A stretch of DNA of 64,000 nt from Candidatus Nitrotoga sp. SPKER (GTDB lineage: Bacteria; Pseudomonadota; Gammaproteobacteria; Burkholderiales; Gallionellaceae): contig QFXG01000014.1 in the NCBI GenBank assembly GCA_003402285.1, forward strand, positions 1-64,000. Reading direction: 5' to 3'. The translations under genes and the position numbers were made by a program. Below are positions 5,105-48,161 of this stretch, piece by piece (the stretch's first letter is position 1; the number at the start of each line of letters is the position of its first letter). The notes beneath the pieces are model-generated. The model was not told the DNA's origin and did not search any database. It saw nothing but the letters and a program-made list of their open reading frames with translations.

Positions 5105-5197
5105 TGTGAGAAATCGGCCACTCAGGATGAGTCCCGCGTCTATGGCCGGTGATGATTTCATACCGGTCGTTGATACATATGGATGCCACCGACAGCA
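5105..5197 (-). repeat. right copy of the ~93 bp diverged inverted repeat
   Basis: On the minus strand this matches 306-397 with about three-quarters identity, including the core GGTGGCATCCA and a CACCGG block. It lies just upstream of the XRE-ImmA gene and marks the other edge of the accessory block. Confidence 0.6.
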
Positions 5198-5207
5198 AAG
5201 GCCGAAT

Positions 5208-5229
5208 AGCTGACTATCATTAGTCAGCT
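5208..5229. repeat. perfect inverted repeat AGCTGACT-N6-AGTCAGCT
   Basis: Eight-base arms flank ATCATT. It is adjacent to the right repeat copy and about 215 bp upstream of the XRE-ImmA start. It has no T-run, so it is more likely an operator or an element end than a terminator. Confidence 0.45.
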
Positions 5230-5408
5230 GTTTCCATTTACATCATAGTAGACGGCACATAGACTGGAAATAGGTGATTAAAGGCCTGCGCCTCGGGGGC
5301 TGTCATCCTATGGAGCAGGAATTCTTCACGACATGCTGCGAGATTACCCCACGCTGATTGATCTGGTAGTCGATCCGTTGGCGTTGCAGAATGAATAACT
5401 CATACGCA

Positions 5409-5750
5409 TTATGCAGCTCGTGTTTCCGCATCTCGCATAATGCGTATGCCGACGCGCGCCAGATCGCCTAATGCACCAGGTTTTTCGATGCAGATTACGA
5501 CCCGGCTGCAATGCCAGTCAGTTAACATGCGCTGGGCGACGTGTTCTGCCAAAGCTTCCAGCAATCGATAACGACAGGGTGCAAGCCATCCGGCAAGCTG
5601 CTGCTCGATGAGAGTACGTGTCAGGCCAAGGGGGTGTACGCTTTCTAGTCGTAAATCGAAAACGAGCGGACGTGAAGCCGCCCGTTCCCATTCATAGACG
5701 CCGATAATGGTATACAACGTAATTCCATCATGTGCGAGCGTGTGCGCCAT
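5409..5750 (-). CDS. folB: FolB-like dihydroneopterin aldolase family protein
   Basis: The 113-residue length and pattern fit the small FolB fold: an N-terminal strand leading to IIGVYEWER, a central RYRLLEALAEHVAQ helix with the conserved Glu, and a C-terminal VVICIEKPGAL strand. FolB converts dihydroneopterin to 6-hydroxymethyl-dihydropterin and glycolaldehyde in folate synthesis. Its ATG overlaps the metE stop (ATGA), so translation is coupled to the methionine synthase. Some residues between the first strand and the central helix are unusual for FolB, so it may be a second, specialised copy. Confidence 0.72.
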   Translation of the reverse strand: MAHTLAHDGITLYTIIGVYEWERAASRPLVFDLRLESVHPLGLTRTLIEQQLAGWLAPCRYRLLEALAEHVAQRMLTDWHCSRVVICIEKPGALGDLARVGIRIMRDAETRAA

Positions 5751-8110: not shown

Positions 8111-9043
8111 ATGCTATCCATTCTTGAATTGCGCCATTTACGCATGTTGGAAGCCTTGGTCGGAAGCGGCAATCTGTCGCGTGCCGCGCAACGCCTACAC
8201 CTGACGCAATCGGCAATTTCGCATCAGGTCAAACAGATGGAAGATCATTACGGCGTTCCGTTGTTTGAACGCAAGACCCAGCCTTTACGGCTGACGGCTG
8301 CCGGACATCGGCTGCATGCCTTGACGGGAGCGGTGCTTGCGCAGGTGGCAGAAGCCGAGCGCGATATTGCTCGCATCGTAGAAGGACAGGCCGGGCGCTT
8401 GCGTGTAGCGGTGGAATGCCATACTTGCTTCGAGTGGCTAATGCCCGCGATGGATGTTTTCCGTGAACATTGGCCAGAGGTTGAGTTGGATTTGGTATCC
8501 GGTTTTCATGTTGATCCGCTGGCACTGCTGCGCGAAGACCGCGCCGACCTTGCCGTGGTATCTGAGTACCGCAAAAACGGATTGATTTATCACCCTTTGT
8601 TCGGGTTCGAGATTGTTGGCATCGTTTCTTGTTTACACAAATTGGCGCAAAAGGAATATCTCACTGCAAGTGATTTTGCCGACGAGACGCTAGTGACCTA
8701 CCCGGTACCGGAAGAGATGCTGGACGTTATACGCAATTTTTTGAAGCCGCACGACGTTGAGCCGAAACGACGAACCGCCGAACTGACCGTTGCGATTTTA
8801 CAGCTGGTTGCCAGCCGCCGAGGTATCTCCGCCATGCCGAATTGGGCGGTGCAAAGCTATTTGAAAACCGGCTACGTGCATAGCATGCGTCTCGGCAAAG
8901 AGGGATTGTTCGGTGAGCTGTACGCCGTCACACATATTGAGGCTGCACAGGCTGTTTATATGCAGGATTTTCTGGAAACCGTGCGAACGGTTAGCTTTAA
9001 TCGTTTGCCGGGGCTAATACCATTATCGATTCGTGAAGAATGA
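8111..9043 (+). CDS. metR: LysR-type regulator MetR
   Basis: The 310-residue LysR protein has an N-terminal winged HTH (residues ~3-62; NLSRAAQRLHLTQSAISHQV) and a periplasmic-binding-like effector domain. The position divergent from metE and the HTH sequence fit MetR, which uses homocysteine as co-effector to activate metE. The ATG at 8111 is used; an upstream extension to 7814 is antisense to metE and is not real. Confidence 0.92.
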   Translation: MLSILELRHLRMLEALVGSGNLSRAAQRLHLTQSAISHQVKQMEDHYGVPLFERKTQPLRLTAAGHRLHALTGAVLAQVAEAERDIARIVEGQAGRLRVAVECHTCFEWLMPAMDVFREHWPEVELDLVSGFHVDPLALLREDRADLAVVSEYRKNGLIYHPLFGFEIVGIVSCLHKLAQKEYLTASDFADETLVTYPVPEEMLDVIRNFLKPHDVEPKRRTAELTVAILQLVASRRGISAMPNWAVQSYLKTGYVHSMRLGKEGLFGELYAVTHIEAAQAVYMQDFLETVRTVSFNRLPGLIPLSIREE

Positions 9044-9127
9044 GTTTTAAGTTTCTCCGTGTTTAAGTACAACATCATCGTCAGCCATTAGTTTTGTTTG
9101 TTGTTAGACGAAGTACCTTATTTAAGA

Positions 9128-9475
9128 TCACATCGAGCGTCCGTCGAAGTTGTGTATGGGCACAGTCGCCAGGTCAACATCTTCAAGACAGCGAATATTG
9201 ATGGCGGCCATCGGATTACCTTTTGGATCGACGCCTTCTCCATAGGGAAGGATGCCACAGACTGGGCAGAAGCGATGCTTGATAAGGTGTTTATTGAAAG
9301 TGTAGGTGCTAGCCGCATCTTCGGCGCTAAGCAGGCGAAGATTGGAGCGGGGCACAAACCACAAAAGCGATCCTCTACGTGAACAAATTGAGCAATTGCA
9401 GGAGATCGCCTGGTTTAATTCACCTTCAACTTCTAGCTTAATTTTTCCACAATGACAGCTGCCTTTGTAAATCAT
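9128..9475 (-). CDS. GFA/CENP-V family zinc protein
   Basis: The 115-residue protein has the cysteine pattern of the glutathione-dependent formaldehyde-activating (GFA) fold: GSCHCGKIKLEVEG, CNCSICSRRG and HRFCPVCGILPYGEG. GGAGAT precedes the ATG. True Gfa enzymes bind glutathione-formaldehyde adducts, but most family members of this size have no known substrate. It is monocistronic here. Confidence 0.88.
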   Translation of the reverse strand: MIYKGSCHCGKIKLEVEGELNQAISCNCSICSRRGSLLWFVPRSNLRLLSAEDAASTYTFNKHLIKHRFCPVCGILPYGEGVDPKGNPMAAINIRCLEDVDLATVPIHNFDGRSM

Positions 9476-9658
9476 GAAATATCTCCATATTTGTTAAATT
9501 CAACGTGTCTTGAACAATGCACAACGCTACTTTGGGACGCCCAACGGGACAGGGTCCATACACTGTTTAAGATATGACCTGTCCTGATGGCCGTTCTGAA
9601 GGCAGTAGATCGAGTGTAATTGAGTTAACGAAACACCCCAAGGAAATGGTAATGGGTC

Positions 9659-10126
9659 TTAGCAGCCCATCTTGGCCATTTCCAGCTGCATTTCTTCCGG
9701 AGTCACATCACGCGTATGAGTCGCGATCGACCAGCGATGGCCAAATGGGTCTTCCACTTGACCGTACCGATCACCCCAAAATGCATCCGCAATAGGCATG
9801 ATAATTTTTGCACCCGCTGCTGCGGCTTGCGCCATAGTTTCATCCGCGTTTTCAACTTGCAAATGAATCGTGATCGATGAGCCTTTCAATGTTTTTGGTC
9901 CGAATGCGCCCCATTTCGGGTTTTCTTCAGCGAGCATCAATTGTGAGTCGCCAATCTGAATACAAGCGTGCATGAGTTTGTCGTCTGGGCCTGGAAGACG
10001 CATTACCTCTATCGCATTGAATGCTTTTTTGTAAAACTCAATAGCTTCTGACGCGCCTGCGCAGATGATGTGTGGAGTGATTGAATGCATTCCATCAGGG
10101 ATGGCCTTAACTTTTAAATTGCTCAT
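9659..10126 (-). CDS. VOC-family (glyoxalase/PhnB-like) protein
   Basis: The 155-residue protein has the paired beta-alpha-beta-beta-beta modules of the vicinal oxygen chelate fold: HIICAGASEAIEFYKKAFNA at the start and a C-terminal half with DRYGQVEDPFGHRWSIATH. This resembles PhnB-like proteins often found with AHSA1/SRPBCC genes. It is the last gene of the ArsR-led operon. The substrate is unknown. Confidence 0.85.
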   Translation of the reverse strand: MSNLKVKAIPDGMHSITPHIICAGASEAIEFYKKAFNAIEVMRLPGPDDKLMHACIQIGDSQLMLAEENPKWGAFGPKTLKGSSITIHLQVENADETMAQAAAAGAKIIMPIADAFWGDRYGQVEDPFGHRWSIATHTRDVTPEEMQLEMAKMGC

Positions 10127-34994: not shown

Positions 34995-35116
34995 TGCATG
35001 GAATTATTAATTCTGTACCTGGATAGGATTGCTCCATCATTTTTTCCTAGTCGTTTAAGGACACTAGTTAGCCAGAGGTCAGCTCCCTTGAATTAAACAA
35101 ATCCCTGACTTTTAAG

Positions 35117-35707
35117 TTATATAGGCTCAGTCGCTATTTCGTTGGCAATGCGTAGAATTTCTTCTGAAGTATCCGAAAACTTATTTATAAAATCGACATT
35201 TTTTGCAGGTGCAACTAAATCGAGAAATTGTTGATGAAGTAGAGCAATTCGATCTGGACTTATACCCGTGAGTACCGGTGGCACGCTAATTAAAGCGGCC
35301 ATTGTTGCACCGTCATGTTGGGTGAATGCGTCAGCAAGTATCTTTGTTTTCCCTGCATCATCAAGAGAGCGGTAAATTAAGCGAATCTCTGCGGCATACT
35401 CATTGGGCACCAAATTTGCCGATTTAAGTTGTTCAGCTTTTACGTTCTCACGAAATTGGGTAATTTTAGAACAGAAAAGATCACGCACTGCGCTGACGGT
35501 CACTTTAAGTTTCTCTTGCGCGGTTGCAACGTCCTGAGCGATGGCAACTGCCGATCTCATAGGGTCTGGATGTTCCCTCAATTCTGTCGCCACGAAAGCA
35601 TCTTTTTCGATGCGTTGCATCAGCTCCCGAAGTTCAGTCCCAAGCTGCCCATCTTCAGGTATACGAGTGATTAAATGTTTGATTGATGCAAATTTGGGTG
35701 ATTTCAT
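35117..35707 (-). CDS. hypothetical soluble helical protein
   Basis: The 196-residue product is mostly helical with no signal peptide, membrane helix or motif I know. Candidate landmarks are NEYAAEIRLIYRSLDDAGKT and ISPDRIALLHQQFLDL. It stands alone in an AT-richer region of small genes, possibly acquired. Confidence 0.6.
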   Translation of the reverse strand: MKSPKFASIKHLITRIPEDGQLGTELRELMQRIEKDAFVATELREHPDPMRSAVAIAQDVATAQEKLKVTVSAVRDLFCSKITQFRENVKAEQLKSANLVPNEYAAEIRLIYRSLDDAGKTKILADAFTQHDGATMAALISVPPVLTGISPDRIALLHQQFLDLVAPAKNVDFINKFSDTSEEILRIANEIATEPI

Positions 35708-35871
35708 TTCTTCTCCATTTCAATTCTGTGCCATGCCGCTTTTTTACAATTTATGAATATTGCAAATACGCTAACCAATATCAACAAGATACAAGTCAGT
35801 ACTTTACCAACTTCATTTTACCGCTCCTGTTAATAAGCAGCTTCCTACTCACTCCTGAACTTTGTCTATAA

Positions 35872-36111
35872 CTAATAAACATCCTTTGCCATCAAGCAAA
35901 GGTTAATTAGCTCTTCTTCTCGCAGTTCAGCGTTCGTAGTACTCAAGGGAGTGCTACCTGATTTAGCAGTTCTAGCCATTTCTTTTTCAACATCTTGTTT
36001 GCAAACTGCCAAATCCTTTTTATATTGCTCACTTTTTGTAGATGGTTCTTTGTCAGATTTCGGAGCACAGCCCATAAGTAAGATTAATATAATTAATACG
36101 ATAATTTTCAT
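35872..36111 (-). CDS. small lipoprotein
   Basis: The 79-residue protein has a short signal and lipobox (MKIIVLIILILLMGC, Cys15), then a charged helical body with CKQDVEKEMARTAKSG. The function is unknown. Codon usage is AT-rich like its neighbours. Confidence 0.75.
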   Translation of the reverse strand: MKIIVLIILILLMGCAPKSDKEPSTKSEQYKKDLAVCKQDVEKEMARTAKSGSTPLSTTNAELREEELINLCLMAKDVY

Positions 36112-36318
36112 TTTTTTACCTCGTTTTATATAGCTACCAACATAACTAACAGTTCAATTATTTTCTCTGCTTCAAGGCATTATTTAATTCTTTAAGTTTA
36201 TTTGTTGGAATTTCATTCGAGATTTTCTTTAATTTTACTGATGATTGCGATCCCGAATAGTTCAATACTGTACTATCAAGTTAACTGTCAAGAAAAATAC
36301 GAAAGAGGATATTCGGGA

Positions 36319-36381
36319 ATGAAGCTATCCCGCATGTTGTTTGAGATGTTAAAAGAAGCGTTTAGAGGAAGAAAGCAATGA
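36319..36381 (+). CDS. possible 20-residue leader peptide
   Basis: MKLSRMLFEMLKEAFRGRKQ ends in a TGA that overlaps the ATG of the next frame (ATGA), with GAGGA upstream. It may be a translationally coupled leader or a fragment of a mobile-element protein. Confidence 0.35.
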   Translation: MKLSRMLFEMLKEAFRGRKQ

Positions 36382-37574
36382 AAAAATTCATGCATTTTCT
36401 AAAACTTGCATCATTTATTCTCGGCCTAATAGCTACATCCACAAATATTTTTGCGGCTACCGTCATCGAGTTTTATAACATCAATTTGGACAATTATTTT
36501 ATCACTGCTGATGCAGGCGAAGCGGCGGCCATCGATAGGGGTGATGCGGGTCACCGCCGATTCTTGATGCGCAGGTTGTCACATCACCAACGCCCCCTTC
36601 AATGCCATACCGAACAATGGTTTGAATGACCATGCGGCCATCCAGACCGCCATCGATTCTACCGCGCCGGGCGGCGCAAATGCAGGCAAGTCCGTATTCG
36701 TCCCGCCAGGAACGTACGACCTCTCCGGGCCCGTCATCCTTAAGGCTCACACGCACCTTTTTGGCATCCCCTACGATCAATCAAAATTCCACGCCATGGA
36801 TGCCGGGACCAACGGTTTGAGTTCGAAGGCATGGGTGATGGAGACAGTAGACGATGCGACAGCAACGACCAGCGTCAAGTATGTCTGGCCAACCTGGAAG
36901 GAACTTTTTAAGAGTCCCAGCCCTTGGATGAGCACGATGCGCTGGGCGGCGGGTAAAATTCGGTAATGCGCGGCGTGCGTGGCCAGAAAACTGGCCCTCG
37001 TTGCGAGGACAAGCGGCGCCAGATGTGGCGCGTGGAAGGTAACGACGGCGGTCGGTGGTACACCTGGATGGGGGAGCCTGCCCAATCTGCGGGTTGCAAT
37101 ACAAATACATCTGGCGAAATGGATCCAGATTTTCGCAAGCTCTACATCACCGGGACAACGCAGTCACTCACCATCTATGGGCCGAATCCGGAACACGGCG
37201 GAGTCACCACGGTAGGCAGGCCAGCCAATCCGTTCATCGAGATCATGGACTCCGCCAACATCCGTTTCTTAGACTTGAAATCAAAAACCAATGGCATGAT
37301 GCTTGTGATCAACAACTTCAACAACCTCTTCTTTTCGGGAGTAAATGCGCTCAAGTTCGAGGATTACGGTCAACCCTATATCCAAATCAATAACAGTACC
37401 AATCTTGAGCTGGCCCTCGTAGCGGCCTGGGGTTCAGATGCCTTTCCGCTGCTGGTGGAAACAGGAATGGGCACAAGCGATGCCTTCAACCACGATACAG
37501 AAATCGGGATCTACCGCAGAAGAACGATCAACTGGTCAGCCTGGCCCCGCTCTTTTTCTAACAACAGCCAATAA
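36378..37574 (+). pseudogene. chimeric, frameshifted secreted beta-helix (pectate-lyase-like) protein
   Basis: The frame opens with a good signal peptide and VIEFYNINLDNYFITADAGE, a repeat seen in secreted proteins. It is then joined out of context to a right-handed beta-helix segment whose frame reads NAPFNAIPNNGLNDHAAIQT, then AIDSTAPGGANAGKSVFVPP and GTYDLSGPVIL. The helix part shifts frame near 36570-36620 and again near 36930-36965 (a stop at 36964-36966), and resumes as GQKTGPRCEDKRRQMWRVEG to 37574. It is not translated as one product. Confidence 0.7.
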
Positions 37575-37600
37575 ATGCTGAATTTTTCAGTAAGTCGACT

Positions 37601-38866
37601 ATGACCCATCCTTATCGTCAGCATCGCCGCATACTTGTCGCAAGCCTGGTTGGAACCGCTGTTGAGTTTTACGATTTTTACGTTTATGCAACGGCGGCGG
37701 CATTGGTGTTCGGCCCCCTATTCTTTCCGGCCAGTTCACCCGCCGCGCAATTGATGCTGTCATTCCTAAGCTTTGGTCTCGCATTCATCGCACGTCCGTT
37801 TGGTGCGGTATTGTTCGGTCATTTTGGTGATCGAATCGGGAGAAAATCGACACTGGTCGCATCGCTGATGCTGATGGGAGTATCGACCCTGCTGATTGCG
37901 TTCTTGCCGACTTATGCAATGGTCGGTTGGATTGCGCCACTATTGTTGTGCATCCTACGCTTCGGCCAGGGACTTGGCCTGGGCGGAGAGTGGGGTGGCG
38001 CAGCATTACTGGCGGTTGAAAATGCCCCTCATGGTTGGCGGGCACGATTCGGTATGATCCCGCAACTGGGCGCGCCGGTTGGGTTCCTTGCTGCCAATGG
38101 GCTGTTTCTGTTAATCGGTATGAGATTGAGCGAAGCAGAATTCGCGTCATGGGGCTGGCGTATACCGTTTCTGGCCAGTGCCATCCTGGTTGGCCTCGGT
38201 CTGTGGGTGCGCCTGAAAATCAAGGAAACACCTGAATTTGCTGAAGCGCTGGCAAAGGATCCTCCGATTCCAGTTCCCATTGGTGAGTTGATCCGCAACC
38301 ATGCACTTGCCACATTTGCCGGGGCTTTCGCAGTAGTAGCCTGTTTTGCGATTTTTTATCTTTCAACCGCTTTTGCGCTTGCCCATGGTACAACCGCCCT
38401 TGGATATAATCGTGAAGTTTTTCTGGCTGTTCAGCTTGCTGCAATTCTGTTTCTCGTTATCGGCATTATCATCTCAGGGATATGTGCCGATGCATTTAAC
38501 GCGGCACGGGTGCTGACATGGGGATGTGCAGCAACCATCGGCTTAGGATTGATATTCGGGCCGCTTTTGGGTTCGGGATCACTTTGGCTGGTATGGGCAG
38601 CATTGTCGCTCGCACTCTTCATCATGGGCTTTGTCTATGGTCCACTCGGCGCATGGCTGCCGTCTCTATTTCCACCACGGGTGCGCTATACCGGAACGTC
38701 GATAGCGTTCAATGCGGGCGGCATCCTGGGTGGAGCTGTTGCCCCGATTGCCGCGCAGGCGCTTAGCGAAATAGGGGGCACGTCACTTGTGGGTCTTTAC
38801 TTGACGGTTGCAGGGGTGCTTAGTTTTGCGGGGCTGATGCTGGCTCGGCGACGTAATGTAAGGTAA
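37601..38866 (+). CDS. MFS transporter, metabolite:H+ symporter (MHS) type
   Basis: The 421-residue protein has 12 predicted membrane helices. MHS marks include GTAVEFYDFYVYATAAALVF at the start, GHFGDRIGRKSTLV in loop 2-3, and RFGQGLGLGGEWGGAALLAVE in helix 4. The family (ProP, ShiA, KgtP) carries osmolytes, shikimate or dicarboxylates; the substrate here is unknown. Its stop codon lies inside a GGTAA tandem repeat. Confidence 0.92.
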   Translation: MTHPYRQHRRILVASLVGTAVEFYDFYVYATAAALVFGPLFFPASSPAAQLMLSFLSFGLAFIARPFGAVLFGHFGDRIGRKSTLVASLMLMGVSTLLIAFLPTYAMVGWIAPLLLCILRFGQGLGLGGEWGGAALLAVENAPHGWRARFGMIPQLGAPVGFLAANGLFLLIGMRLSEAEFASWGWRIPFLASAILVGLGLWVRLKIKETPEFAEALAKDPPIPVPIGELIRNHALATFAGAFAVVACFAIFYLSTAFALAHGTTALGYNREVFLAVQLAAILFLVIGIIISGICADAFNAARVLTWGCAATIGLGLIFGPLLGSGSLWLVWAALSLALFIMGFVYGPLGAWLPSLFPPRVRYTGTSIAFNAGGILGGAVAPIAAQALSEIGGTSLVGLYLTVAGVLSFAGLMLARRRNVR

Positions 38867-38881
38867 GGTAAGGTAAGGTAA
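38860..38881. repeat. pentanucleotide tandem repeat (GTAAG)n
   Basis: About four and a half copies of the five-base unit run through the end of the MFS gene and include its TAA stop. Gain or loss of a unit would not change the stop greatly, because each unit carries a TAA in one frame. Confidence 0.75.
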
Positions 38882-39225
38882 GACAAGGCTTGCCTACAAT
38901 ACGCTCGACATTCGTACCATGAATCCGAAATATTGTTTCTAGTCCGAAAATATCTATTATAAGGATAAAGCTGAAGCTGCCTATGCACGTGGCACATTAT
39001 TCGATAAGCGTCGACGATTGATGAATGATTGGGCTGCGTTTTGTGCCATCGCTGCTGTTAAGGGTGGCACTGTTGTGCAATTACACGGTGGTCAATAAAT
39101 ACAAGCTTAACAAAATAACCATATTGAATATTTGCTAAGCTGGATAGCGTACATACTATTTATCAAAACTCCATTATTTTGATTAACCGTAACAACTACG
39201 ATTAATTTTATATTTAGAGGATATT
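38867..39225. other. gap holding an integrase relic and the promoter of the OMP gene
   Basis: Apart from the integrase tail at 38952-39098 there is no gene. The AT-rich part 39100-39215 should contain the promoter of the barrel protein gene, and TTTAGAGGAT provides its ribosome-binding site. Confidence 0.5.
38952..39098 (+). pseudogene. C-terminal relic of a P4-type tyrosine integrase
   Basis: An open frame reads KAEAAYARGTLFDKRRRLMN followed by DWAAFC and ends at a TAA. This is the typical end of tyrosine integrases (AYxRGDLFEKRRxLMxxWAxYC), carrying the catalytic Tyr. Nothing of the rest remains. It is a scar of an excised or decayed element. Confidence 0.75.
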
Positions 39226-39834
39226 ATGAAAAAAATTGCCTGTGCAATAGTCAAAATTGGTAGTGGAACATTATTAGTCATCTCGACAGCAACAGCCGCA
39301 TTTGGGCAACCAGCGTATTACCTTGGAGGTAGTGTCGGTCAGTCAAAATATAAAGATATTCCGCAAGGTTTGAGAAATGTCGATGATACGGATACTGGGT
39401 ACAAGGTATATGGTGGTTATCAAATCAACCCAAACTGGGGAGTAGAAGCCACCTATTTTGATTTGGGCAAATTTACTGGTAATGACACTGCATTTAATGG
39501 TAGTTCCGTTGTGCCTGTTAATGCATCAGCTAAGGTTCAAGCTTGGGGCTTGGCAGGTGTTTTTACCGCACCAATTACTAGTGGATTTTCTGTATTTGGC
39601 AAACTTGGGTTTACTAGAAGTGAACTAAAAACAAATGCTTCCGGCCTGAATTTTACAGCTCATCAAAAAGAATCCCGTACCGGTGCCAACTATGGAGTTG
39701 GAGCGAAATATGATTTCACTCCAAATTTCGCCGTTCGTGCAGAGTGGGAGCGCTTAAATAAAGTAGGTGAAGATGCGACCACTGGTGAGACAGACATGGA
39801 TTTCCTTTCAGCAGGTCTGACATTCAAATTCTAA
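39226..39834 (+). CDS. outer-membrane beta-barrel protein (OmpA/opacity-like)
   Basis: The 202-residue protein has a signal peptide (cleavage near ATAAFGQ) and then an eight-strand barrel pattern: YYLGGSVGQSKYKD, GYKVYGGYQINPNWGVEATY, FSVFGKLGFTRSE, and the final Phe in FLSAGLTFKF. There is no periplasmic OmpA domain. The role is structural or unknown. A terminator follows. Confidence 0.88.
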   Translation: MKKIACAIVKIGSGTLLVISTATAAFGQPAYYLGGSVGQSKYKDIPQGLRNVDDTDTGYKVYGGYQINPNWGVEATYFDLGKFTGNDTAFNGSSVVPVNASAKVQAWGLAGVFTAPITSGFSVFGKLGFTRSELKTNASGLNFTAHQKESRTGANYGVGAKYDFTPNFAVRAEWERLNKVGEDATTGETDMDFLSAGLTFKF

Positions 39835-39844
39835 ACCTGATGCG

Positions 39845-39868
39845 GCCTTCATAATTTTGAAGGCTTTT
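39845..39868 (+). terminator. terminator of the barrel gene
   Basis: GCCTTCA-TAATTT-TGAAGGC is followed by TTTT, 11 bases after the stop. Confidence 0.75.
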
Positions 39869-39964
39869 GATTAGTTCATGGGCAGGACTTAAGGTTTAAT
39901 CCCGATATGAGAACATGTCGGAATTAAGTTTGTGTTTGGAACAAGGCAAGGTAAGTTTAAATTT

Positions 39965-39986
39965 GAAACCCGCCGAAGCGGGTTTC
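39965..39986. terminator. 9-bp GC-rich hairpin
   Basis: GAAACCCGC-CGAA-GCGGGTTTC is a perfect stem. It sits between convergent genes and may terminate either one, though the T-run is weak. Confidence 0.5.
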
Positions 39987-40039
39987 TATTGAGCCAGTCA
40001 AACTCTCTGAATGACAGATTTCCAAAAGGATTTCATTTG

Positions 40040-40528
40040 TTAATCATCGTCATCATTCTCATCTTCCATCTTGTTGTTTTGAGTATCATTCATCTTCTTA
40101 CCTTGGGAGCCACTCATTTTATTGCTTGATTTATTAGCACTGGAATTTGGTGACCAACAGCATGAGTTGTCCGAACTATCAGTAACTTTAGTTTCGCTCT
40201 TGGGATTGCCGTCGTCCTTTTTTGATCGTGTCTGATTGGAATCCATATTCCTATTACTCATTTTATTACTCTCACCGCTCCTCATCTTCTTGTACGCGGC
40301 CTTCATTTCCTCGGAGCTAAGTTGGCCATCACCATTAGCATCCATTTTTTGGAACGCCTTTTCGCCAAAATTTTTAGACTCTTCTTTGGTAATCATGCCA
40401 TCAGAATTGGTATCCATAGCTTTGAACATATCTTCCTGCATTTTTCCTTTTGATGAATCGGCCTGAGCTATAGCCGGACTTAAAACAAAACATGATGTGA
40501 TAACAAGGGATATAAAAGTTTTTTTCAT
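40040..40528 (-). CDS. secreted EF-hand calcium-binding protein
   Basis: The ~162-residue protein has a signal peptide (cleavage after PAIAQA) and two EF-hands: DTNSDGMITKEE and DANGDGQLSSEE. A low-complexity Ser/Asn/Lys tail with DSSDNSCCW ends in a run of Asp (DENDDDD). Start ATG 40528 has GGAG upstream. It is probably a periplasmic or extracellular Ca2+-binding protein of unknown role. Confidence 0.88.
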   Translation of the reverse strand: MKKTFISLVITSCFVLSPAIAQADSSKGKMQEDMFKAMDTNSDGMITKEESKNFGEKAFQKMDANGDGQLSSEEMKAAYKKMRSGESNKMSNRNMDSNQTRSKKDDGNPKSETKVTDSSDNSCCWSPNSSANKSSNKMSGSQGKKMNDTQNNKMEDENDDDD

Positions 40529-40540
40529 TTGAATCTCCAT

Positions 40541-41052
40541 TTTAAGGTTTTACGGAAGATTTCTAAATCGACGTAGGGTTATGCCGCGCCGAAGAGTTGT
40601 ACCCAAAATAGTTATTGGAAAACTCAGAATTAAGCTTAGCAAAGGATATTAGGTATGGTCTGTGCGTTAGGGCACTTGTAGTGTGGATATAAAACCGTGC
40701 TTTACCGCACAGACTGTCTGCTGCTAATCATCTATTGTGAAATCATTCTCTGCTTAATGTTATCGAGTGTTAATAGCTTAAGTTCCTATAAGCACCCGAG
40801 TCTCCCCCTTGACGCGCATTTAGCAGTGAATATGTAATCTCCTCTTCCGCTCTCTTCCCTCTAGAACAGAGCGGTTTTTTATTGCTCAAAGCGAGACATC
40901 GAACAGAACAGCTTCTTAAATTCAATTATTTTATTTATGCTCTCTGTTTAATGTTAGTAAAGGCAAATAATTTTTCATTATTATTTGTACTTATTCCTCC
41001 TCTGGCGTGCATTAAACAGCGTGCACTATATAACTCTACGCCAGGAAGAATA
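40541..41052. other. 512-base region without a clear gene
   Basis: It contains the promoter side of the EF-hand gene and the candidate small RNA at 40809-40880. A frame running 40882-41052 is only the upstream extension of the small membrane gene. Nothing else is convincing. Confidence 0.4.
40809..40880 (+). ncRNA. candidate short RNA with own promoter and terminator
   Basis: TTGACG (40809-40814), 16 bases, then TATGTA (40831-40836) make a good sigma-70 promoter. A CU-rich stretch CTCCTCTTCCGCTCTCTTCC follows, ending in the hairpin CCGCTCT/AGAGCGG and TTTTTT at 40880. No ORF explains the terminator. The RNA would be about 40 nt and could carry an anti-Shine-Dalgarno seed. Confidence 0.4.
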
Positions 41053-41205
41053 ATGTCTGAACCTATCAACAATAGTTTTAAAGAAGAAAAATTCCAAGAT
41101 CCACTTAAAACCTTTCAAAGAGAATTTTTGGCATTAGCAATAGCAGTTTTAGTTGCGATAGTTATCATTACTGCTGTAACTCCTCAATTATTGCTTATAT
41201 TATAA
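41053..41205 (+). CDS. 50-residue single-TM protein
   Basis: The ATG at 41053 has AGGAAGA upstream. The peptide has a charged N-terminus and one membrane helix (LALAIAVLVAIVIITAVTPQ). A longer frame from 40882 is unlikely because it lacks a ribosome-binding site. The function is unknown. Confidence 0.6.
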   Translation: MSEPINNSFKEEKFQDPLKTFQREFLALAIAVLVAIVIITAVTPQLLLIL

Positions 41206-41237
41206 ATTACTCCCCCCTCTCCAATTAAGGGGCTACT

Positions 41238-41564
41238 ATGAATCACTGGACCTTGCTTTTTTTGCTGCCAATTTTAACAACTGGTTGCGCCACTGTACCA
41301 AAGCCGCTTGCAGCCGGTGCATTTGTCAACGTGACACCCAACGCCGCAAAAAATGGTAATTTCGTTGATCAGCATGTCCGCTGGGGAGGCAGTATTGCAA
41401 AAGCGGAGCCAGGTAAAGATGAGACATGTTTTGAGGTAGTGAGTTACCCCTTGGATAGCAGTACAAGACCTATTGCAACGGATATGACTGAAGGGCGATT
41501 CATTACCTGCGCACCCGATTTTTATGAGCTGTGTCAGTCGAAAAGTAACGCGCATAGCGCATGA
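41238..41564 (+). CDS. Slp-family outer-membrane lipoprotein, C-terminally truncated
   Basis: The 108-residue product has lipobox LTTGC and Slp signatures (QHVRWGGSIAKAEPG; FEVVSYPLDSSTRPIATD; TEGRFITCAPDFYEL). Slp proteins are usually about 170-190 residues, so the last third is lost. The break lies at the left edge of the integrative element, at a copy of AAGTAACGC. The codons after FYEL are foreign. Confidence 0.75.
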   Translation: MNHWTLLFLLPILTTGCATVPKPLAAGAFVNVTPNAAKNGNFVDQHVRWGGSIAKAEPGKDETCFEVVSYPLDSSTRPIATDMTEGRFITCAPDFYELCQSKSNAHSA

Positions 41565-41595
41565 ATGCTGGAGAGTAAAAAAATAAACTTTATAA

Positions 41596-41615
41596 ATGCC
41601 CCCAGTTATGCCCCC
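41596..41615. repeat. left-end integrase arm-type repeats (ATGCCCCC x2)
   Basis: Two direct copies of ATGCCCCC start at 41596 and 41608. The same motif occurs three times, in both orientations, next to the integrase gene at the other end (47911-47958). They are likely arm-binding sites for the integrase N-terminal domain. Confidence 0.65.
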
Positions 41616-41641
41616 TAGCATTCACGACTACAGACAAATTA

Positions 41642-41884
41642 TCATTCCACGAAAGTAACGCTAAGAGACTGCTGCCAAGCTATCACGTCGGATTGTCTCC
41701 ATCGCACTGACCCCGTACCGATCGATAGCGGGCGTGGAAATTTACCTACTTTAATGAGGCGGTAAATCGTTGCTCTGCTGAGACCTGACAATTTTTCAAC
41801 GGTTTTGCGGGGGATGAGACAGTCAACTAATTGAGGTTGTTCAGCACGGGGTGGGCTATTTTGTAGTAAATTTGATTTCATCAT
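41642..41884 (-). CDS. AlpA-family regulator (excisionase-like HTH)
   Basis: The 80-residue protein has the MerR-like winged HTH of AlpA: IPRKTVEKLSGLSRATIYRL, then GKFPRPLSIG and VRWRQSDVIAWQQS. AlpA proteins regulate integrase expression and excision in P4-like satellites and islands. It is the last gene in the element's minus-strand run. Confidence 0.9.
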   Translation of the reverse strand: MMKSNLLQNSPPRAEQPQLVDCLIPRKTVEKLSGLSRATIYRLIKVGKFPRPLSIGTGSVRWRQSDVIAWQQSLSVTFVE

Positions 41885-41915
41885 TTTATTCCTGAAAAGT
41901 GAGCTGCAAACGATG

Positions 41916-42851
41916 TTATTTCCAAGAACATGCCCAGCCAGCTAGCATGCCTTCCCCATCCCACACAAAACCAACTGAACCGCCCGACGCCTCTTTCAGC
42001 TTGTCGAGGGCAACATCCATCACACGGCGCTCTGAGCGTAGCGAGAGGGTAAAACACTCCATAGGCACCTGAATGTTGCGCGACGAGCGGAAACGATGCT
42101 TGTTGAGCTTCCTATCGCCTGTTGCAAACGCTTTGACCAGATACTTGCCGAGGTATTGAACCAGATAGAGCCGCTGATCTTTACGAGTGCCTTTGGGAGC
42201 GCTCACGTCGATATTTCCTTCACCTATAATTTCGCGCCACAATCTACGAAGCAGCACCACATCTTGGCGACCACGAACTGCTAGGTGCCAATGCCATGCG
42301 CCCCGTTCCTGTTGTTCAGCAACGGCGACATACAACCAATCGGGCAAATTGAATTTCACTTTTCGGACAAAGCGATTCAGATCGTCTGATGCACGTTTGA
42401 AATCTGTGATGTTTTCGCGGTAAGTGAGGGTAAGCAAGTGCGTGAGGTTTGCTCCCAAGATTAACTGACGCAGGCGGGATTTTGCGCGGCGAATTGCGCG
42501 ATCCTCATTATGGGTGCGTTGAATTGACGAACCACGAGCAGCTTTGTGAGTTGAACTTAAACCAACAAAAGACCACCCCACCTCTGCAAGCCCTTTGCCA
42601 TAGTTGCGTAAGGTAATGCGATTTTTAGCGGTGCTGGGTGTGTTGGAATATGTCCTCTTTTCAAGTCTAGGGGCGGCTGCGCCGCCCAAACCCGAGGACG
42701 CTCCCACGGACAGCGCGTGCGGAACGGGCGCTATTGCCACCTCGCCGCATTCCCTAAATTCGGTACGTGGCGCGCTAGCGCGCACCTCCGTCCCAAATTT
42801 TGGAAACGCGGCTACGGCGGCCCCAGTAAAACCTTCAAATTTCTGTTTCAT
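41916..42851 (-). CDS. HUH-type rolling-circle Rep
   Basis: The 311-residue replication initiator has motif II H187-W-H189 in RGAWHWHLAVRG, upstream LTLTYRENITDFKRA (motif I), and candidate nicking tyrosines Y233 and Y237 (LVQYLGKYLVK). An AGGAG lies before the ATG. The first ~90 residues are Ala/Pro/Gly-rich and coincide with GC-rich palindromes, so a replication origin may be embedded there. It likely replicates the excised element as ssDNA. Confidence 0.85.
   Translation of the reverse strand: MKQKFEGFTGAAVAAFPKFGTEVRASAPRTEFRECGEVAIAPVPHALSVGASSGLGGAAAPRLEKRTYSNTPSTAKNRITLRNYGKGLAEVGWSFVGLSSTHKAARGSSIQRTHNEDRAIRRAKSRLRQLILGANLTHLLTLTYRENITDFKRASDDLNRFVRKVKFNLPDWLYVAVAEQQERGAWHWHLAVRGRQDVVLLRRLWREIIGEGNIDVSAPKGTRKDQRLYLVQYLGKYLVKAFATGDRKLNKHRFRSSRNIQVPMECFTLSLRSERRVMDVALDKLKEASGGSVGFVWDGEGMLAGWACSWK
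42671..42783. repeat. GC-rich palindromes inside the Rep N-terminal codons
   Basis: GGGCGGC-TGC-GCCGCCC at 42671-42687 and the perfect 14-mer GCGCGCTAGCGCGC at 42770-42783 are found in an otherwise AT-rich element. They are candidates for a nick-site stem-loop (double-strand origin). Confidence 0.5.
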
Positions 42852-42958
42852 GTTGTGCTCCTATTGAGTTAACGGAGCACGAATCATCTTGCAGATAACA
42901 GGACATAAAAATTCCCGCCAAGTAGAAAAATGATATTTCTATAAATAGACGGGAGTTT

Positions 42959-43648
42959 TTAAACCGCGTTGGTATTGAGTTTCTTGCTTTTAGGCCTACC
43001 AGGTTTGCGAACACTATCTGGTGCAACTTCACTCAACCAATTGCGGAGGGTGTTTTTTCCCGTGTAAAGTTTGCCACCGCCATATTCCAAAATAGCTGTA
43101 TGCTCTGACATAGCAGTGATGGTCATTGTTGGATATACATCCCAAAGAGTTTTAGCAACTGCTTGGCAGACAAGTTTATCTATCTGCGAAGGGCGTAAAG
43201 ATTGTGATTGAAGCTGAATTTGAGCGGGTGCTAAATCATTGGGATCTTCATTTGCTGTACGAGAATTCTCTTGAATTAATGGCCACCAAAAGGATGGGTA
43301 GTCGCATTGCTGTTCCATGCAATATTGGAGCAGTCCATCGCATCCAATATAATATGTATCGAGTGCACTCTTGTCGTATTTTCGTGATAGGCAATTTGCC
43401 AATTCGACAGGAAATTCGTTTACATAGTAGTTTCTAATTTCTGAGCGAAATCCCGAGCGCCTGCTATCTTCAGGCAACTCTGACGCTATCACGTGACAAA
43501 GAGTAATACCATCATCTAATACACCACGACAGATAAATCTGATTGAGTCTTGCACATTCAGAGGGAGATCACAAGGATCAGTTTTATCTGGATTAATATC
43601 ATGCCATCGGTGAGCGATTTCCCAAATTGAAAGGTAGTGGTCAATCAT
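42959..43648 (-). CDS. hypothetical protein with C-terminal HTH-like segment
   Basis: The 229-residue protein is not recognised. The C-terminus (LYTGKNTLRNWLSEVAPDSV, then RKPGRPKSKK) looks like a recognition helix followed by an AT-hook-like basic tail. It sits between Rep and the cargo pair on the same strand, so a regulatory or replication-accessory role in the element is plausible. Confidence 0.6.
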   Translation of the reverse strand: MIDHYLSIWEIAHRWHDINPDKTDPCDLPLNVQDSIRFICRGVLDDGITLCHVIASELPEDSRRSGFRSEIRNYYVNEFPVELANCLSRKYDKSALDTYYIGCDGLLQYCMEQQCDYPSFWWPLIQENSRTANEDPNDLAPAQIQLQSQSLRPSQIDKLVCQAVAKTLWDVYPTMTITAMSEHTAILEYGGGKLYTGKNTLRNWLSEVAPDSVRKPGRPKSKKLNTNAV

Positions 43649-43712
43649 CGCGTTTTTAATTTCTTAAATTTTAATTAAAAATTACGATAGAAGGTTTTTA
43701 CGTCAACCGTAT

Positions 43713-45332
43713 TTATTTATGTACAAGATGTGATTTCTTAATCGTTATAATATTCTGAGCCAAATCGAAAGAGAAATTACTGTGCATTGAAGATTGAGTT
43801 AATGCGGGTGGATCATCTGTTGCCAAATTCATTTTAATGGAAGCTAATATTTTTTGACCTGCTTTTGAATTTGATTTTTTTACCATATCAAACGCTTCAT
43901 TTATAAGTTCCTGTGCATTTGGAGTTTTCATAATAAACGCTTCACGTGCCATAAAAGACAATGCGATACTTTTTGCCTCGCCAGATTTATTGTCAAACCA
44001 CTCAAGTGCCTTGCGATAGTATTCTTCCGCTTCTTGAAACTTTCCTGTTCTGTAATGAATCATGCCTAGATTAGCTAATGTATGTCCACTAATTGCATTA
44101 GATTTACGATACTCTAACAAACAAACTTTATGAAGATGAATAATAGATTCCTCAATTTTATTTTGAAAGGCAAGAGCGCATACTAAGTTGTTTCTTAATT
44201 CAGTATCCTCTGGATCCAATAGCAAAGCGTCAAGCGCGTATTGCTCAGATAATTCCGCATCGCCAAGAATTAATAAAACAAATGTAGCTGCCCGGAGAGG
44301 GCGGGGTGAAAATGGTTCATCAAAAAACCATGAAATTGCTGCATCCTTGGCTTTTTCAAAATCACCTTCAATGTGTTTCTGATAATAAAGAGCTTCCGAT
44401 GAAAATGGGCCATTAAACCAATCTTCACGTATATTAATGTTTATCCCATATTTCTGGGAAACCCATATAGCTTGAGCAATAACATTATCATTAGGATTGA
44501 CTAATGCTCGGTTAAATATTTTTTTGGATTGTTTTATATCACCACTAGCTATCATGATAGAAGCTATAGCACCTCTTAACTCACCTAATTGGTATGGTGA
44601 AATCCGATCGGATTCACTCATAGCGCGTGCTGTATTAAACTGTTTGTGTTGCCTTCCAAGTAACTCCTCAATAGATAACTTTGATGCCAATAACCAAGGA
44701 TCGTGAAGTGTTCTAGGTGAATTATTAATAAATCGTAAGGCAAGTTCAGCTTCATCAATTTGTATAAAAAACCTTGCGGCAGAGCGAAGTGCAAATGTGT
44801 GATTAGGGAATAAATTTATAGCAGTGAGTATCGCTTTTTTAGCCTTCTCATTCTGGCCGAGTGCTGAATATATTCGCGCTAAATCAACTAATGCAACAGC
44901 ATTTTTAGGATTAATTTGTATATTTTTTTTTAATTGTGACGCTTCTTGATAATATAAATCTCTTGGACGCAAAACGGTTTTTATTCTCGAGTTTTCCTCA
45001 GAAAGTTTCTCTGCATTTAGGATACCTCGAGAGATTTCTTTAATAATTTTGGAGGTGGGTTCATTTAATGAAGCTACATATTCAGCTGGCTCCATGAGAA
45101 ATGGTATTGCAGATGGAATATGAGAAAAATTAAGTAGATCCGCAGCTCCACCTACAGATTTATGCTTGCGCCATTCATTGAGTGTTTCAATTAAATTTTC
45201 TTGATTAAATTCTTTAACGAATCGCTGAGTATCGCTTGAGCTTAACGTTGGAGAGGCCGTCATTGTTTCAGAGATTGATGAGTCCCTCCATCTTGGAATA
45301 ATCCTTCTCTCCCATTTATATATCACTAACAT
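43713..45332 (-). CDS. TPR-repeat protein, partner of the kinase
   Basis: The ~539-residue protein consists mostly of tetratricopeptide-like helical pairs (for example NPKNAVALVDLARIYSALGQ, HTLANLGMIHYRTGKFQEAE and EYYRKALEWF). The annotated start overlaps the kinase stop by 17 bp; a GTG at 45326 or an ATG at 45263 are alternatives. It has no membrane helix. TPR proteins beside kinases commonly serve as sensors, substrates or scaffolds. AT-rich, unlike the host genes. Confidence 0.8.
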   Translation of the reverse strand: MLVIYKWERRIIPRWRDSSISETMTASPTLSSSDTQRFVKEFNQENLIETLNEWRKHKSVGGAADLLNFSHIPSAIPFLMEPAEYVASLNEPTSKIIKEISRGILNAEKLSEENSRIKTVLRPRDLYYQEASQLKKNIQINPKNAVALVDLARIYSALGQNEKAKKAILTAINLFPNHTFALRSAARFFIQIDEAELALRFINNSPRTLHDPWLLASKLSIEELLGRQHKQFNTARAMSESDRISPYQLGELRGAIASIMIASGDIKQSKKIFNRALVNPNDNVIAQAIWVSQKYGININIREDWFNGPFSSEALYYQKHIEGDFEKAKDAAISWFFDEPFSPRPLRAATFVLLILGDAELSEQYALDALLLDPEDTELRNNLVCALAFQNKIEESIIHLHKVCLLEYRKSNAISGHTLANLGMIHYRTGKFQEAEEYYRKALEWFDNKSGEAKSIALSFMAREAFIMKTPNAQELINEAFDMVKKSNSKAGQKILASIKMNLATDDPPALTQSSMHSNFSFDLAQNIITIKKSHLVHK

Positions 45333-46383
45333 AACTCCGATTACGATCTTGAATTATCAGCCTTTTTGCAATGGCATCCAATCGAGAAATGTAACGATCT
45401 AAACCCAATTTTCTTCCAATCTGTGATCGTGTGGTCGGATGACCTCTAATTTGAGGGTTAGGATGACACAAGTGAAAATACATTAATGCCATTTCTTCTT
45501 TATACTGATATGGCAAATAAGGAGCGAGTGACTTAGTTGCTTTGGAATGCGCGTCAATTAAGAATGGTAACAACTCTTCATAATTACCTTCCCATGTTTC
45601 ATTCTTGTATTGTTGGGGTAATTGGGAAAATGTTAAATTTATTGCTCCAATACCACAAAACAAAAAGGAAATCATGCTACCTAGTAGGTAGGCATCACTT
45701 CCATAACGACGATCCTGGTGATCACTTGGGATATGATGATAATAATATTCAGGAGGTGCATAAGAAAGATCTCCAGGGAATGCATATATATCAGTAGGAG
45801 CAAGATGATGTTTTGAATTTGACCTCCCTAAATCAGAAAGTTTATATTTTTTATCAGTTTTGAATGATAGAACATTTGATGGTTTTAAATCTTGGTGAGC
45901 TATGTCATTCTTATGCAATTGCGTCAATGCAACAGCTACTTGGTGGAGAACAAAACATTTCCAAGAATCAGTTTTGTCACCATCAAATGAAATTTCTCTT
46001 CGAATATCTCCACCATCTGCCAATTCAAAAATCAAGTAATAAACAGTATTAAATTCTGCATTTATCCCTGTTGGCAATTGATCAACTTGATATTCACCAT
46101 CATCGATTAATGTAACAATATGAGAGAGCCGTTTATCGCGGCATAAATTATTTAGTTCACGCTCAAAATTAAATTGCCTAGTGGTCTCTTCGACCTTTTT
46201 AATACCTGTTTTCAACGCATCATGTAAGTCTAAAGCTTTGAGAAAGGCTTGTTTGTTGTCTTTAGTGACAATATATCCATTAGAAAATACCCCTCCAGTT
46301 TGGCCTTTAAATGTTGGTACAGGCTCTTTTACATACCATCCATTTATAACATGACCACACAGTAACGATGAAGGAGTACTCAT
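45316..46383 (-). CDS. Hanks-type serine/threonine protein kinase
   Basis: The 355-residue protein has the catalytic core: Lys49 (AFLKALDL), Glu in FERELNNL, H163-Q-D165 in IAHQDLKPSN (HRD variant), D184-L-G186 in KLSDLGRSN (DFG variant), and Pro-Pro-Glu at 210-212. The glycine loop is degenerate (GQTGGVFSNGY). There is no membrane anchor or PASTA domain. It heads the cargo pair of the integrative element. Kinases in this setting often trigger abortive infection. Confidence 0.88.
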   Translation of the reverse strand: MSTPSSLLCGHVINGWYVKEPVPTFKGQTGGVFSNGYIVTKDNKQAFLKALDLHDALKTGIKKVEETTRQFNFERELNNLCRDKRLSHIVTLIDDGEYQVDQLPTGINAEFNTVYYLIFELADGGDIRREISFDGDKTDSWKCFVLHQVAVALTQLHKNDIAHQDLKPSNVLSFKTDKKYKLSDLGRSNSKHHLAPTDIYAFPGDLSYAPPEYYYHHIPSDHQDRRYGSDAYLLGSMISFLFCGIGAINLTFSQLPQQYKNETWEGNYEELLPFLIDAHSKATKSLAPYLPYQYKEEMALMYFHLCHPNPQIRGHPTTRSQIGRKLGLDRYISRLDAIAKRLIIQDRNRSYVSDI

Positions 46384-46651
46384 TGAATCCTTTCTTGAAT
46401 TTACTTAAAGATATTACTGAAACAGTGAAAATTCAAAGTATATCATTTCATATGATCATCAGTTTACTAGTCCCAGTGACCTCAATAAAAAGTGGGATTT
46501 AGGTAGATAATTAGCGTAGCTAAATCGTAACTTGATGACACTTTTTAGCATGTTTTGAGGCTTTACGTAACTGTAGATAAAATGGGCTGGTGTTACAGGC
46601 TATTGATTATAAAATAATTAAATTAGCATGTAGCTTCTACGAACCAAAGGG

Positions 46652-47896
46652 TCAAGCGCGCATTGGTATCACTTCCGCACCCATTTCTATTTTGTCGAGA
46701 TGATCCGCCCACTTTTGCATAATGTCGCGTCGCTCTTCAAAATATGAAGTACGCACGTATGCTGCCGCTGTCTGGTTAATTAGTGCATGAGAAAGCATCG
46801 CCTCTAACGCCTCCCATCGATATCCCATTTCACCAAGTATTGAGCGAGCAAGACTTCGAAATCCATGCCCTGTCATTTTGCCTTTGTAGCCGATCGTCTC
46901 TATTATTTTCAACACTGTATTTTCGCTAATAACTCGTCCAGTGGTGTTACGGTTCGGAAATACAAATTCATTTTGTCCTGTAATTGGATATAGATCGTGT
47001 AGTATTTTGACGGCTTGAGAGCATAGCGGCACCGCATGATCCTTGCGCTTGTCACCCTTCCCCTTGCGTCCTGTTTGTTCTGCCGGAATAATCCAACTTC
47101 CCGCTTCTAGGTCAAAGTCCGCCCACTTAGAAAACCGTACTTCACTGGTCCTCGTAGCCGTTAGCATCAAAAGGCGAAACGCAGATATAGCAATCGGCGA
47201 AACTTTATCCATGTTTTGATAGGCGGTTACTTCGCGAAGGAATACGGGTAATTCTTCAGGAGAGATGCAAGCAAAGTTTTCTACTTTTGGACGCTCCGCT
47301 AGAGCAATCCGAATTTCAGCCGGATTTAATTTTGCCCGTCCTGTTGCTATTGCATATTTGAATACTGAATTGATAGTTTGAAGCAAGCGATCACGTGTTT
47401 CATGGATACCTAATTCCTCCATCTCACGCATGATCTTCATAATGTCCATTGGCTCGATATCGGTAATCGATCGATCTCCAATAGTCTGCAAAGCGTATTT
47501 TTCTAAATTGACCATCCACTGCTGTGCGTGCTTTACCGTCCACATCGGCGATTTCACTTTGTGGAATTCAAGAGCAAGTTTCTTGAAGGTGTTAGAAACA
47601 ACATCATTTGTTTGGTGCATTGCCTGTTTTGCCGCTTGTTTGATTGCACTTGGGTCTGCACCGTTCGCAAGTATCTTGCGTGCCTGCTCGCGACGATCCC
47701 GAGCTTCCACTAGGCGCACTTCAGGATATACGCCTAGAGCTAGTCGCTTTTCTTTACCACCGAAACGATACTTGAGCCGCCAATACTTTGAGCCGTTCGG
47801 CATCACCTCCAGATACATGCCCCCACCGTCTGCCATTTTGTAGGATTTGGCTTCAGGCTTTGCCTTCTTTATTGCCACGTCGGTTAGCTTGCTCAT
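46652..47896 (-). CDS. P4-type tyrosine integrase
   Basis: The 414-residue protein has an N-terminal DUF4102 arm-binding domain (MYLEVMPNGSKYWRLKYRFG) and a catalytic domain with TRTSEVRFSKW (first Arg), GHGFRSLARSIL (His-x-x-Arg), and AAAYVRTSYFEERR (Tyr). It appears intact. It lies 178 bp from the 3' end of tRNA-Ser, and the GGGGGCAT repeats are next to its start. Confidence 0.95.
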   Translation of the reverse strand: MSKLTDVAIKKAKPEAKSYKMADGGGMYLEVMPNGSKYWRLKYRFGGKEKRLALGVYPEVRLVEARDRREQARKILANGADPSAIKQAAKQAMHQTNDVVSNTFKKLALEFHKVKSPMWTVKHAQQWMVNLEKYALQTIGDRSITDIEPMDIMKIMREMEELGIHETRDRLLQTINSVFKYAIATGRAKLNPAEIRIALAERPKVENFACISPEELPVFLREVTAYQNMDKVSPIAISAFRLLMLTATRTSEVRFSKWADFDLEAGSWIIPAEQTGRKGKGDKRKDHAVPLCSQAVKILHDLYPITGQNEFVFPNRNTTGRVISENTVLKIIETIGYKGKMTGHGFRSLARSILGEMGYRWEALEAMLSHALINQTAAAYVRTSYFEERRDIMQKWADHLDKIEMGAEVIPMRA

Positions 47897-47910
47897 ATTC
47901 TCACCTCACT

Positions 47911-47967
47911 GGGGGCATCGAATTTGTTTATGGGGGCACAAGCGTATATTATGCCCCCAAGTAACGC
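47911..47967. repeat. right-end arm-type repeats and possible core site
   Basis: GGGGGCAT (47911), GGGGGCAC (47932) and ATGCCCCC (47951) lie here, followed by AAGTAACGC (47959-47967). The last 9-mer also occurs at 41543-41551, at the truncated Slp gene, and at 41653-41661. The 41543 and 47959 copies are tentative attachment-core copies. Confidence 0.5.
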
Positions 47968-48005
47968 AAGCTTGCTTGAGATCGGTTGCTACACCACGGA
48001 CGTTA

Positions 48006-48040
48006 AAAAACCCGCCAATGCTATAAGCAGTGCGGGTTTG
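48006..48040 (-). terminator. terminator of tRNA-Ser
   Basis: On the minus strand AAACCCGC pairs with GCGGGTTT and is followed by TTTAAC, 34 bases past the tRNA 3' end. Confidence 0.7.
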
Positions 48041-48073
48041 CGAGATTATTTGAGACTGGTTAATAACGAGTTC

Positions 48074-48161
48074 TGGCGGAAGCTGTGAGATTCGAACTCA
48101 CGGAACATTGCTGTTCGGCAGTTTTCAAGACTGCTGGTTTAAACCACTCACCCAAGCTTCC
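48074..48161 (-). tRNA. tRNA-Ser (anticodon UGA)
   Basis: The 88-nt tRNA has GGAAGCT/AGCTTCC acceptor arms, anticodon TGA at 48127-48125 in a CTTGAAA loop, a long variable arm as in class II tRNAs, the TTCGAAT T-loop, and encoded CCA. It is next to the integrase of the island. Confidence 0.95.

Follow-up and report, generated by a model that had tools for sequence, protein, structure and literature searches.

A kinase-TPR gene pair of the defence candidate family PDC-M71 as cargo of a small integrative element at a tRNA-Ser gene in Candidatus Nitrotoga

In a contig of Candidatus Nitrotoga sp. SPKER (QFXG01000014.1, assembly GCA_003402285.1), a Ser/Thr protein kinase gene and a TPR protein gene lie side by side in a small integrative element next to a tRNA-Ser gene, which raises the question of what such a pair does there and whether it constitutes a defence system of a new kind, as an earlier note on this DNA had proposed. 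The window referred to below is the whole stretch analysed, i.e., positions 1 to 64,000 of the contig (64,000 nucleotides), and its relevant features are listed in Table 1. The preferred reading, to which a probability of about two in three is given, is that the pair is a member of PDC-M71 and an anti-phage cassette of two genes, one of the exchangeable cargoes of a tRNA-Ser element, and that it acts by the mechanism outlined below. The module is probably anti-phage, and it is not of a new kind.

Table 1. Features of the kinase-TPR pair and of the integrative element that carries it (window coordinates).
Feature	Position	Strand	Description
Cut-off second copy of Slp lipoprotein gene, left border	41238..41564	+	Homology to intact copies ends at residue 97
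Integrative element, approximate extent	41529..48073		Left: where similarity to L115 (a sister element) and to intact slp genes stops; right: tRNA-Ser
AlpA-family regulator/excisionase	41642..41884	-	80-83% identical to AlpA of sister elements
Rolling-circle replication initiator Rep	41916..42851	-	REP_ORF2-G2P; PHROG 3419, 1.2e-53
ORF229, part of element	42959..43648	-	229 aa; no family match
TPR alpha-solenoid protein, PDC-M71B	43713..45332	-	539 aa; N-terminal RxxIPRWR signature, residues 9-16
Ser/Thr protein kinase, PDC-M71A	45316..46383	-	355 aa; HQD and DLG; catalytic residues all conserved
Tyrosine integrase adjoining tRNA-Ser	46652..47896	-	Arm-DNA-bind_3, Phage_int_M, Phage_integrase
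tRNA-Ser(TGA), recurrent insertion site flanking element	48074..48161	-	tRNA gene

The arrangement described in the earlier note, a kinase with HQD and DLG motifs and a TPR protein encoded by overlapping, AT-rich genes between a replication module and an integrase, is borne out by inspection of the ORFs: the two genes overlap by 17 nt on the same strand, and their GC content is 36-38%, compared with roughly 44-55% over most of the window. The kinase ORF matches Pfam Pkinase (5.1e-18), and the TPR ORF matches several Pfam TPR families (TPR_8, 6.6e-17). HQD occupies kinase residues 163-165 and DLG residues 184-186. In an alignment of 76 homologues, K49, E74, H163, D165, K167, N170, D184, and G186 are invariant, including K49 and D165, which the earlier note had named for mutation, a choice that this conservation bears out. 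The Hanks-type Ser/Thr set, comprised of the catalytic Lys (K49), the alpha-C Glu (E74), the HxD Asp (D165), the Asn (N170), and the DxG Asp (D184), is complete, and because these residues are invariant across the homologues, catalytic activity is predicted. Purifying selection acts on both genes, with dN/dS values of 0.04-0.16 in pairs with measurable dS (0.09 for the kinase and 0.16 for the TPR gene against the Gallionella homologue), and in each of 13 comparisons between close pairs the TPR protein is the faster-evolving partner. Sigma-70 promoter matches are no better than those in shuffled sequence, and no terminator-like site was found.

With regard to family identity, the assignment was made with PADLOC-DB v2.0.0 (2023), in which the kinase matches PDC-M71A at 6.5e-108 (residues 5-344 on profile positions 9-347 of 352) and the TPR protein matches PDC-M71B at 2.1e-110 (residues 3-495 on profile positions 4-501 of 515). 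Both profiles are matched over their full length, and the genes are adjacent, on the same strand and in the same order. Since the database already models the pair as PDC-M71A/B, the pair is not a new system; the statement that no named system has this combination does not hold, and its proposal as a candidate new defence system is not supported. PDC stands for phage defence candidate, a label for putative systems still awaiting experimental validation (PMC10855318; PMC12988326). Neither "PDC-M71" nor "PDC-M7" was found in the open-access literature searched, and the family is thus already catalogued, with a candidate status that is apparently untested. As genomic context was also the basis on which PDC-M71 was put forward, belonging to the family does not amount to functional proof. 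The window pair is 76%/65% identical to its nearest homologue, and the kinase is less than 42% identical to all but its three nearest homologues; the pair is a divergent PDC-M71 member in which nothing differs at the family level.

Kinase-only queries yielded 87 loci (3 plasmids, 80 genome contigs, and 4 viral contigs); single-sequence pattern scans with the window kinase gave no match in viral or genome contigs, and the homologues there were found with a four-sequence alignment query. The two families do co-occur, as the earlier note had suggested checking: a TPR gene follows the kinase on the same strand in 83 of the 87 loci, in many phyla and in prophages, plasmids, and defence islands, and the remaining four are situated at a contig edge (L069, L079, and L083) or broken (L078). 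A TPR query of the plasmid collection returned exactly the three plasmids with full-length kinase matches. The commonest arrangement is a 4-nt overlap of the two genes (39 loci), kinase and TPR distances are correlated (Mantel r 0.70; shuffled maximum 0.19), and any third gene recurs in at most 8 of the 87 loci. The kinase and TPR genes form an obligate, fixed two-gene operon. Given the low dN/dS values and the retention of both genes together across phyla, the association is more than chance.

The pair is accessory, sporadic, and mobile. The counts are 2 of 369 genomes for the class, 2 of 398 for the phylum (one copy broken), and 5 of 148 for a single Rhizobium genus group; when 60 close relatives of the genome that contains the window were searched with the TPR protein, none had the family, and the kinase family was not found in close relatives either. 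Orthologues occur in 13 of 5,426 E. coli genomes (2.6e-94 against PDC-M71A and 5.8e-103 against PDC-M71B), where they lie in a region of plasmid-like or conjugative type that also encodes RepL and DotA/TraY. One E. coli pair is WP_048264298.1 with WP_049121198.1, as in strain EC0026B (L192). Among annotated phages, no full-length match to the P2-type kinase (that of locus L087) was found, the matches being weak and confined to the kinase domain. Variants of the operon were also observed. In E. coli 0H26 (L190, positions 8537-9785), the last residues of the kinase are replaced through insertion of an IS5 copy at the 3′ end of its gene, which is thereby split from an intact TPR gene; this represents a natural operon variant. 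In four alphaproteobacterial pairs (L005, L025, L058, and L060), a small MarR/winged-helix-like gene, which may regulate the kinase, is located directly 5′ of the kinase gene.

Several other kinase-based defence systems bear some likeness to the pair. Stk2, a staphylococcal eukaryote-like kinase of abortive infection, is comparable in that a single catalytic Ser/Thr kinase is the presumed effector; however, the window kinase resembles it only in generic kinase-domain similarity (9.6e-9, compared with 6.5e-108 for M71A), and to our knowledge Stk2 has no TPR partner. PD-T4-6 is also a Ser/Thr kinase found in prophage and defence contexts, but it is a single-gene system and the similarity is again generic (9.3e-14). 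Membership of either family was rejected, neither being the best match. KKP (PfkA-PfkB-PfpC) of Pf prophages is likewise a prophage-borne Ser/Thr kinase system (PMC11341870), but it comprises two kinases and a phosphatase with no TPR protein, whereas the M71 pair has no widely recurring third gene; neither a KKP second kinase nor a phosphatase is present between Rep and integrase in the window, and none is recurrent in the 87 loci. HipAB/HipAD (DS-6), a kinase with a second gene, is predicted to act by kinase-based abortive infection (PMC13092281), but its kinase has the HipA fold and its partner is DUF3037/DUF1829 or HipB, while the window has Pkinase (PF00069) and TPR.

The association of the PDC-M71 pair with defence is strongly supported by the contexts of homologous pairs. 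In the P2-like prophages L087 and L089, the pair is located between gpA (PHROG 91) and the portal gene gpQ (PHROG 68), followed by the terminase, and this gpA-gpQ slot is a published anti-phage hotspot (Rousset et al. 2022; PMC9122126). The nearest relative, from a Gallionella MAG (L006, kinase 76% identical), adjoins type I methyltransferase and SoFic-like genes, the pair in L077 adjoins Gabija, and that in L072 adjoins a type II restriction-modification (R-M) set with Vsr. Among the PADLOC matches listed for 300 sampled neighbours are CBASS cyclases, PARIS AriA, DISARM DrmA/B/C, and AbiEii, together with type I/II/III R-M, GajB, and several other PDCs (E up to 1e-15), whereas the matches listed for 150 random proteins comprise three generic families, one of them a UvrD helicase. 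The enrichment is to be read as qualitative, since the random control was drawn from genomes of the window's class, was not phylum-matched, and was compared on the best 25 families per set. For some pairs, such as those that follow nrdJ or uvrB, the nearest neighbours include no defence gene.

Overlapping genes, obligate pairing, and residence on integrative elements, plasmids, and prophages are also what would be expected if the kinase were a toxin and the TPR protein its antitoxin, an addiction pair that stabilizes the mobile element and protects against phage only incidentally. KKP, which is both a phosphorylation-based toxin-antitoxin and a defence system (PMC11341870), provides a parallel. 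However, the kinase is the upstream gene, the TPR protein is larger than most antitoxins at 539 aa, the neighbours of the pair are specifically enriched for defence, and many copies are chromosomal and situated in hotspots rather than on elements in need of addiction. An addiction role is therefore considered unlikely, albeit the best surviving of the alternatives.

In the window, the pair is flanked by ORF229, Rep, and AlpA on one side and by the integrase and tRNA-Ser(TGA) on the other. The left limit of the element is placed at about 41529, where homology to L115 begins and that of the truncated slp to intact slp genes ends. An intact relative of the truncated slp exists elsewhere in the same genome (G000:C9:25377-25667), and the point where the slp copy breaks off coincides with the left border. 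The search for att repeats gave none of confidence at the element, whose extent is approximate; it returned a weak 24-nt inverted pair (41583-41606 and 47908-47931), which may represent integrase arm sites. The description of the element as P4-like goes too far. The element does have a tyrosine integrase of P4 type, situated at a tRNA gene, and an AlpA-like regulator, but the replication initiator is a rolling-circle Rep, and none of P4 alpha primase-helicase, psu, sid, or delta was recognised among the element ORFs by Pfam and PHROGs (ORF229 having no match). Because no psu or alpha was recognised, the element is not called P4-like, an identity rejected on gene content; judged by its genes, it would be a different element from P4 satellites with an analogous cargo slot. 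The likeness to P4-like satellites and to the P2 gpA-gpQ hotspot lies in interchangeable defence cassettes and a slot adjoining the integrase, M71 itself being found in the P2 slot.

The tRNA-Ser(TGA) beside a dinG-like helicase gene (window 34997-48073) is an insertion hotspot in the genus, with empty sites in two sister genomes (L113 and L114). There the helicase gene directly abuts tRNA-Ser, while the window has 13 kb of island between the two. Two sister elements at the same tRNA-Ser (L115 and L116) have integrases 73-74% and AlpA proteins 80-83% identical to those of the window, and genes in their replication regions show no similarity to the window Rep. Beside the integrase lies a type II R-M set in L115 (methyltransferase 5.1e-132, restriction endonuclease 2.3e-88, and control protein) and a type II-A retron in L116 (reverse transcriptase 1.3e-112 and effector 2.2e-71). 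Since the sister elements hold R-M or a retron where the window holds the kinase-TPR pair, the slot exchanges defence cassettes. The evidence supports the view that a small integrative element carries the pair as cargo, at a position occupied in the sisters by recognised defence systems, much as the earlier note had anticipated. In L115, the R-M genes at 4973-5668 and 5684-6665 form a type II system with control protein, convergent with its methyltransferase, and a pentapeptide-repeat protein gene is located beside it.

The position of the pair between integrase and Rep would also suit a regulator of the element or prophage, in which the kinase phosphorylates a repressor or a host nucleoid protein and thereby controls whether the element excises, replicates, or transfers, or serves in competition with co-resident elements, and KKP does control Pf lysogeny via MvaU (PMC11341870). 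On the other hand, sister elements with similar integrase and AlpA do without the pair and carry R-M or a retron instead, and the pair also occurs in unrelated elements and chromosomal loci, which makes such a role quite improbable.

It has also been considered that the pair, rather than being an effector itself, controls immune operons next to it in the manner of CapK/CapS, which lie upstream of CBASS. Such pairs of kinase and substrate regulators exist (PMC13373217), and the PDC-M71 pair often adjoins other defence genes. However, no downstream operon or third gene is recurrent, and the pair is the sole recognised cargo in the window element and in the P2 hotspot. Regulation of the CapK/CapS type is set aside as very improbable because CapK belongs to the GHKL type and is paired with a STAS/wHTH protein, differing in both fold and partner.

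A ribonucleotide reductase (RNR) large-subunit gene is located directly upstream of the pair, on the same strand at a distance of 16-461 nt, in 8 of the 84 loci that have an upstream gene. The RNR-linked loci belong to unrelated lineages and mostly contain the B12-dependent nrdJ (L021, L028, L044, L045, L052, L069, L078, and L079). A housekeeping role of the pair in signalling connected with deoxyribonucleotide synthesis, the least credible of the alternatives, was rejected and is largely refuted, since the linked kinases are scattered on the tree rather than forming one clade (at least four changes), 5 of 148 Rhizobium genomes carry the pair, and the gene content after nrdJ is variable. The conserved housekeeping locus that would have spoken against the earlier note is thus not what was found, the pair being sporadic and its RNR linkage scattered. 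In pair-less Rhizobium (L157-L186), different genes follow nrdJ each time, including GajA, SIR2/ThsA-like, and CBASS-type phospholipase effector genes, and because these genes are varied and partly defence-like, the place after nrdJ is itself a variable hotspot, apparently an unreported one for defence. In a Rokubacteria MAG (L078:2401-6585), nrdJ lies upstream of a broken M71 kinase, and this nrdJ appears to contain an intein-like insertion.

Returning to the reading of the pair as an anti-phage cassette, AlphaFold2 models show a complete kinase fold (pLDDT 96.2, pTM 0.94) and a long TPR solenoid (pLDDT 90.5, pTM 0.82). The RxxIPRWR segment of the TPR protein is confidently placed in the model, and its R9, P13, and W15 are conserved at 90% or more. 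PDB, viral fold, and profile searches returned generic relatives only, namely TPR superhelices and CAMK/Aurora kinases. Since no nuclease, membrane, or NAD-consuming protein accompanies the pair, the effector is probably the kinase itself, with the TPR protein probably acting as sensor or scaffold; an abortive-infection module built in this way is the most likely form of the system. Briefly, the TPR solenoid would bind the kinase and serve as infection sensor or scaffold, restraining its partner until the complex is altered, either by a phage product or because a host factor is lost. The freed or assembled kinase would then phosphorylate host (or phage) proteins, and this phosphorylation would halt growth or phage replication, resulting in abortive infection. 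Stk2 is a precedent for kinase-mediated arrest via phosphorylation of host proteins. KKP, in which phosphorylation of host proteins gives phage defence, is a second (PMC11341870).

Complex formation, sensing, toxic phosphorylation, and phage protection are thus suggested by the Stk2 and KKP precedents and by the lack of another effector gene. The foundation observed here is the obligate pairing, the intact kinase site, the conserved TPR protein, the mobility, and the defence-hotspot contexts. A more specific version, which is possible but doubtful, is that the RxxIPRWR segment of the TPR receptor acts as a tethered inhibitor or substrate of the kinase and lets the kinase go when the solenoid binds a phage product, whereupon the kinase executes abortive infection. 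If true, this would be a mechanistically new kind of kinase immunity, operating without a nuclease, membrane, or NAD effector, and would parallel the receptor-scaffold-kinase immune signalling of eukaryotes.

Since E. coli carries orthologues of the pair, the kinase-only effector mechanism is directly testable with standard coliphages. PDC-M71 is a widely spread defence candidate, in which the pair is obligate and the kinase intact, and it is tied independently to three kinds of hotspot, i.e., the slot of the tRNA-Ser element, the P2 gpA-gpQ slot, and the place 3′ of nrdJ.
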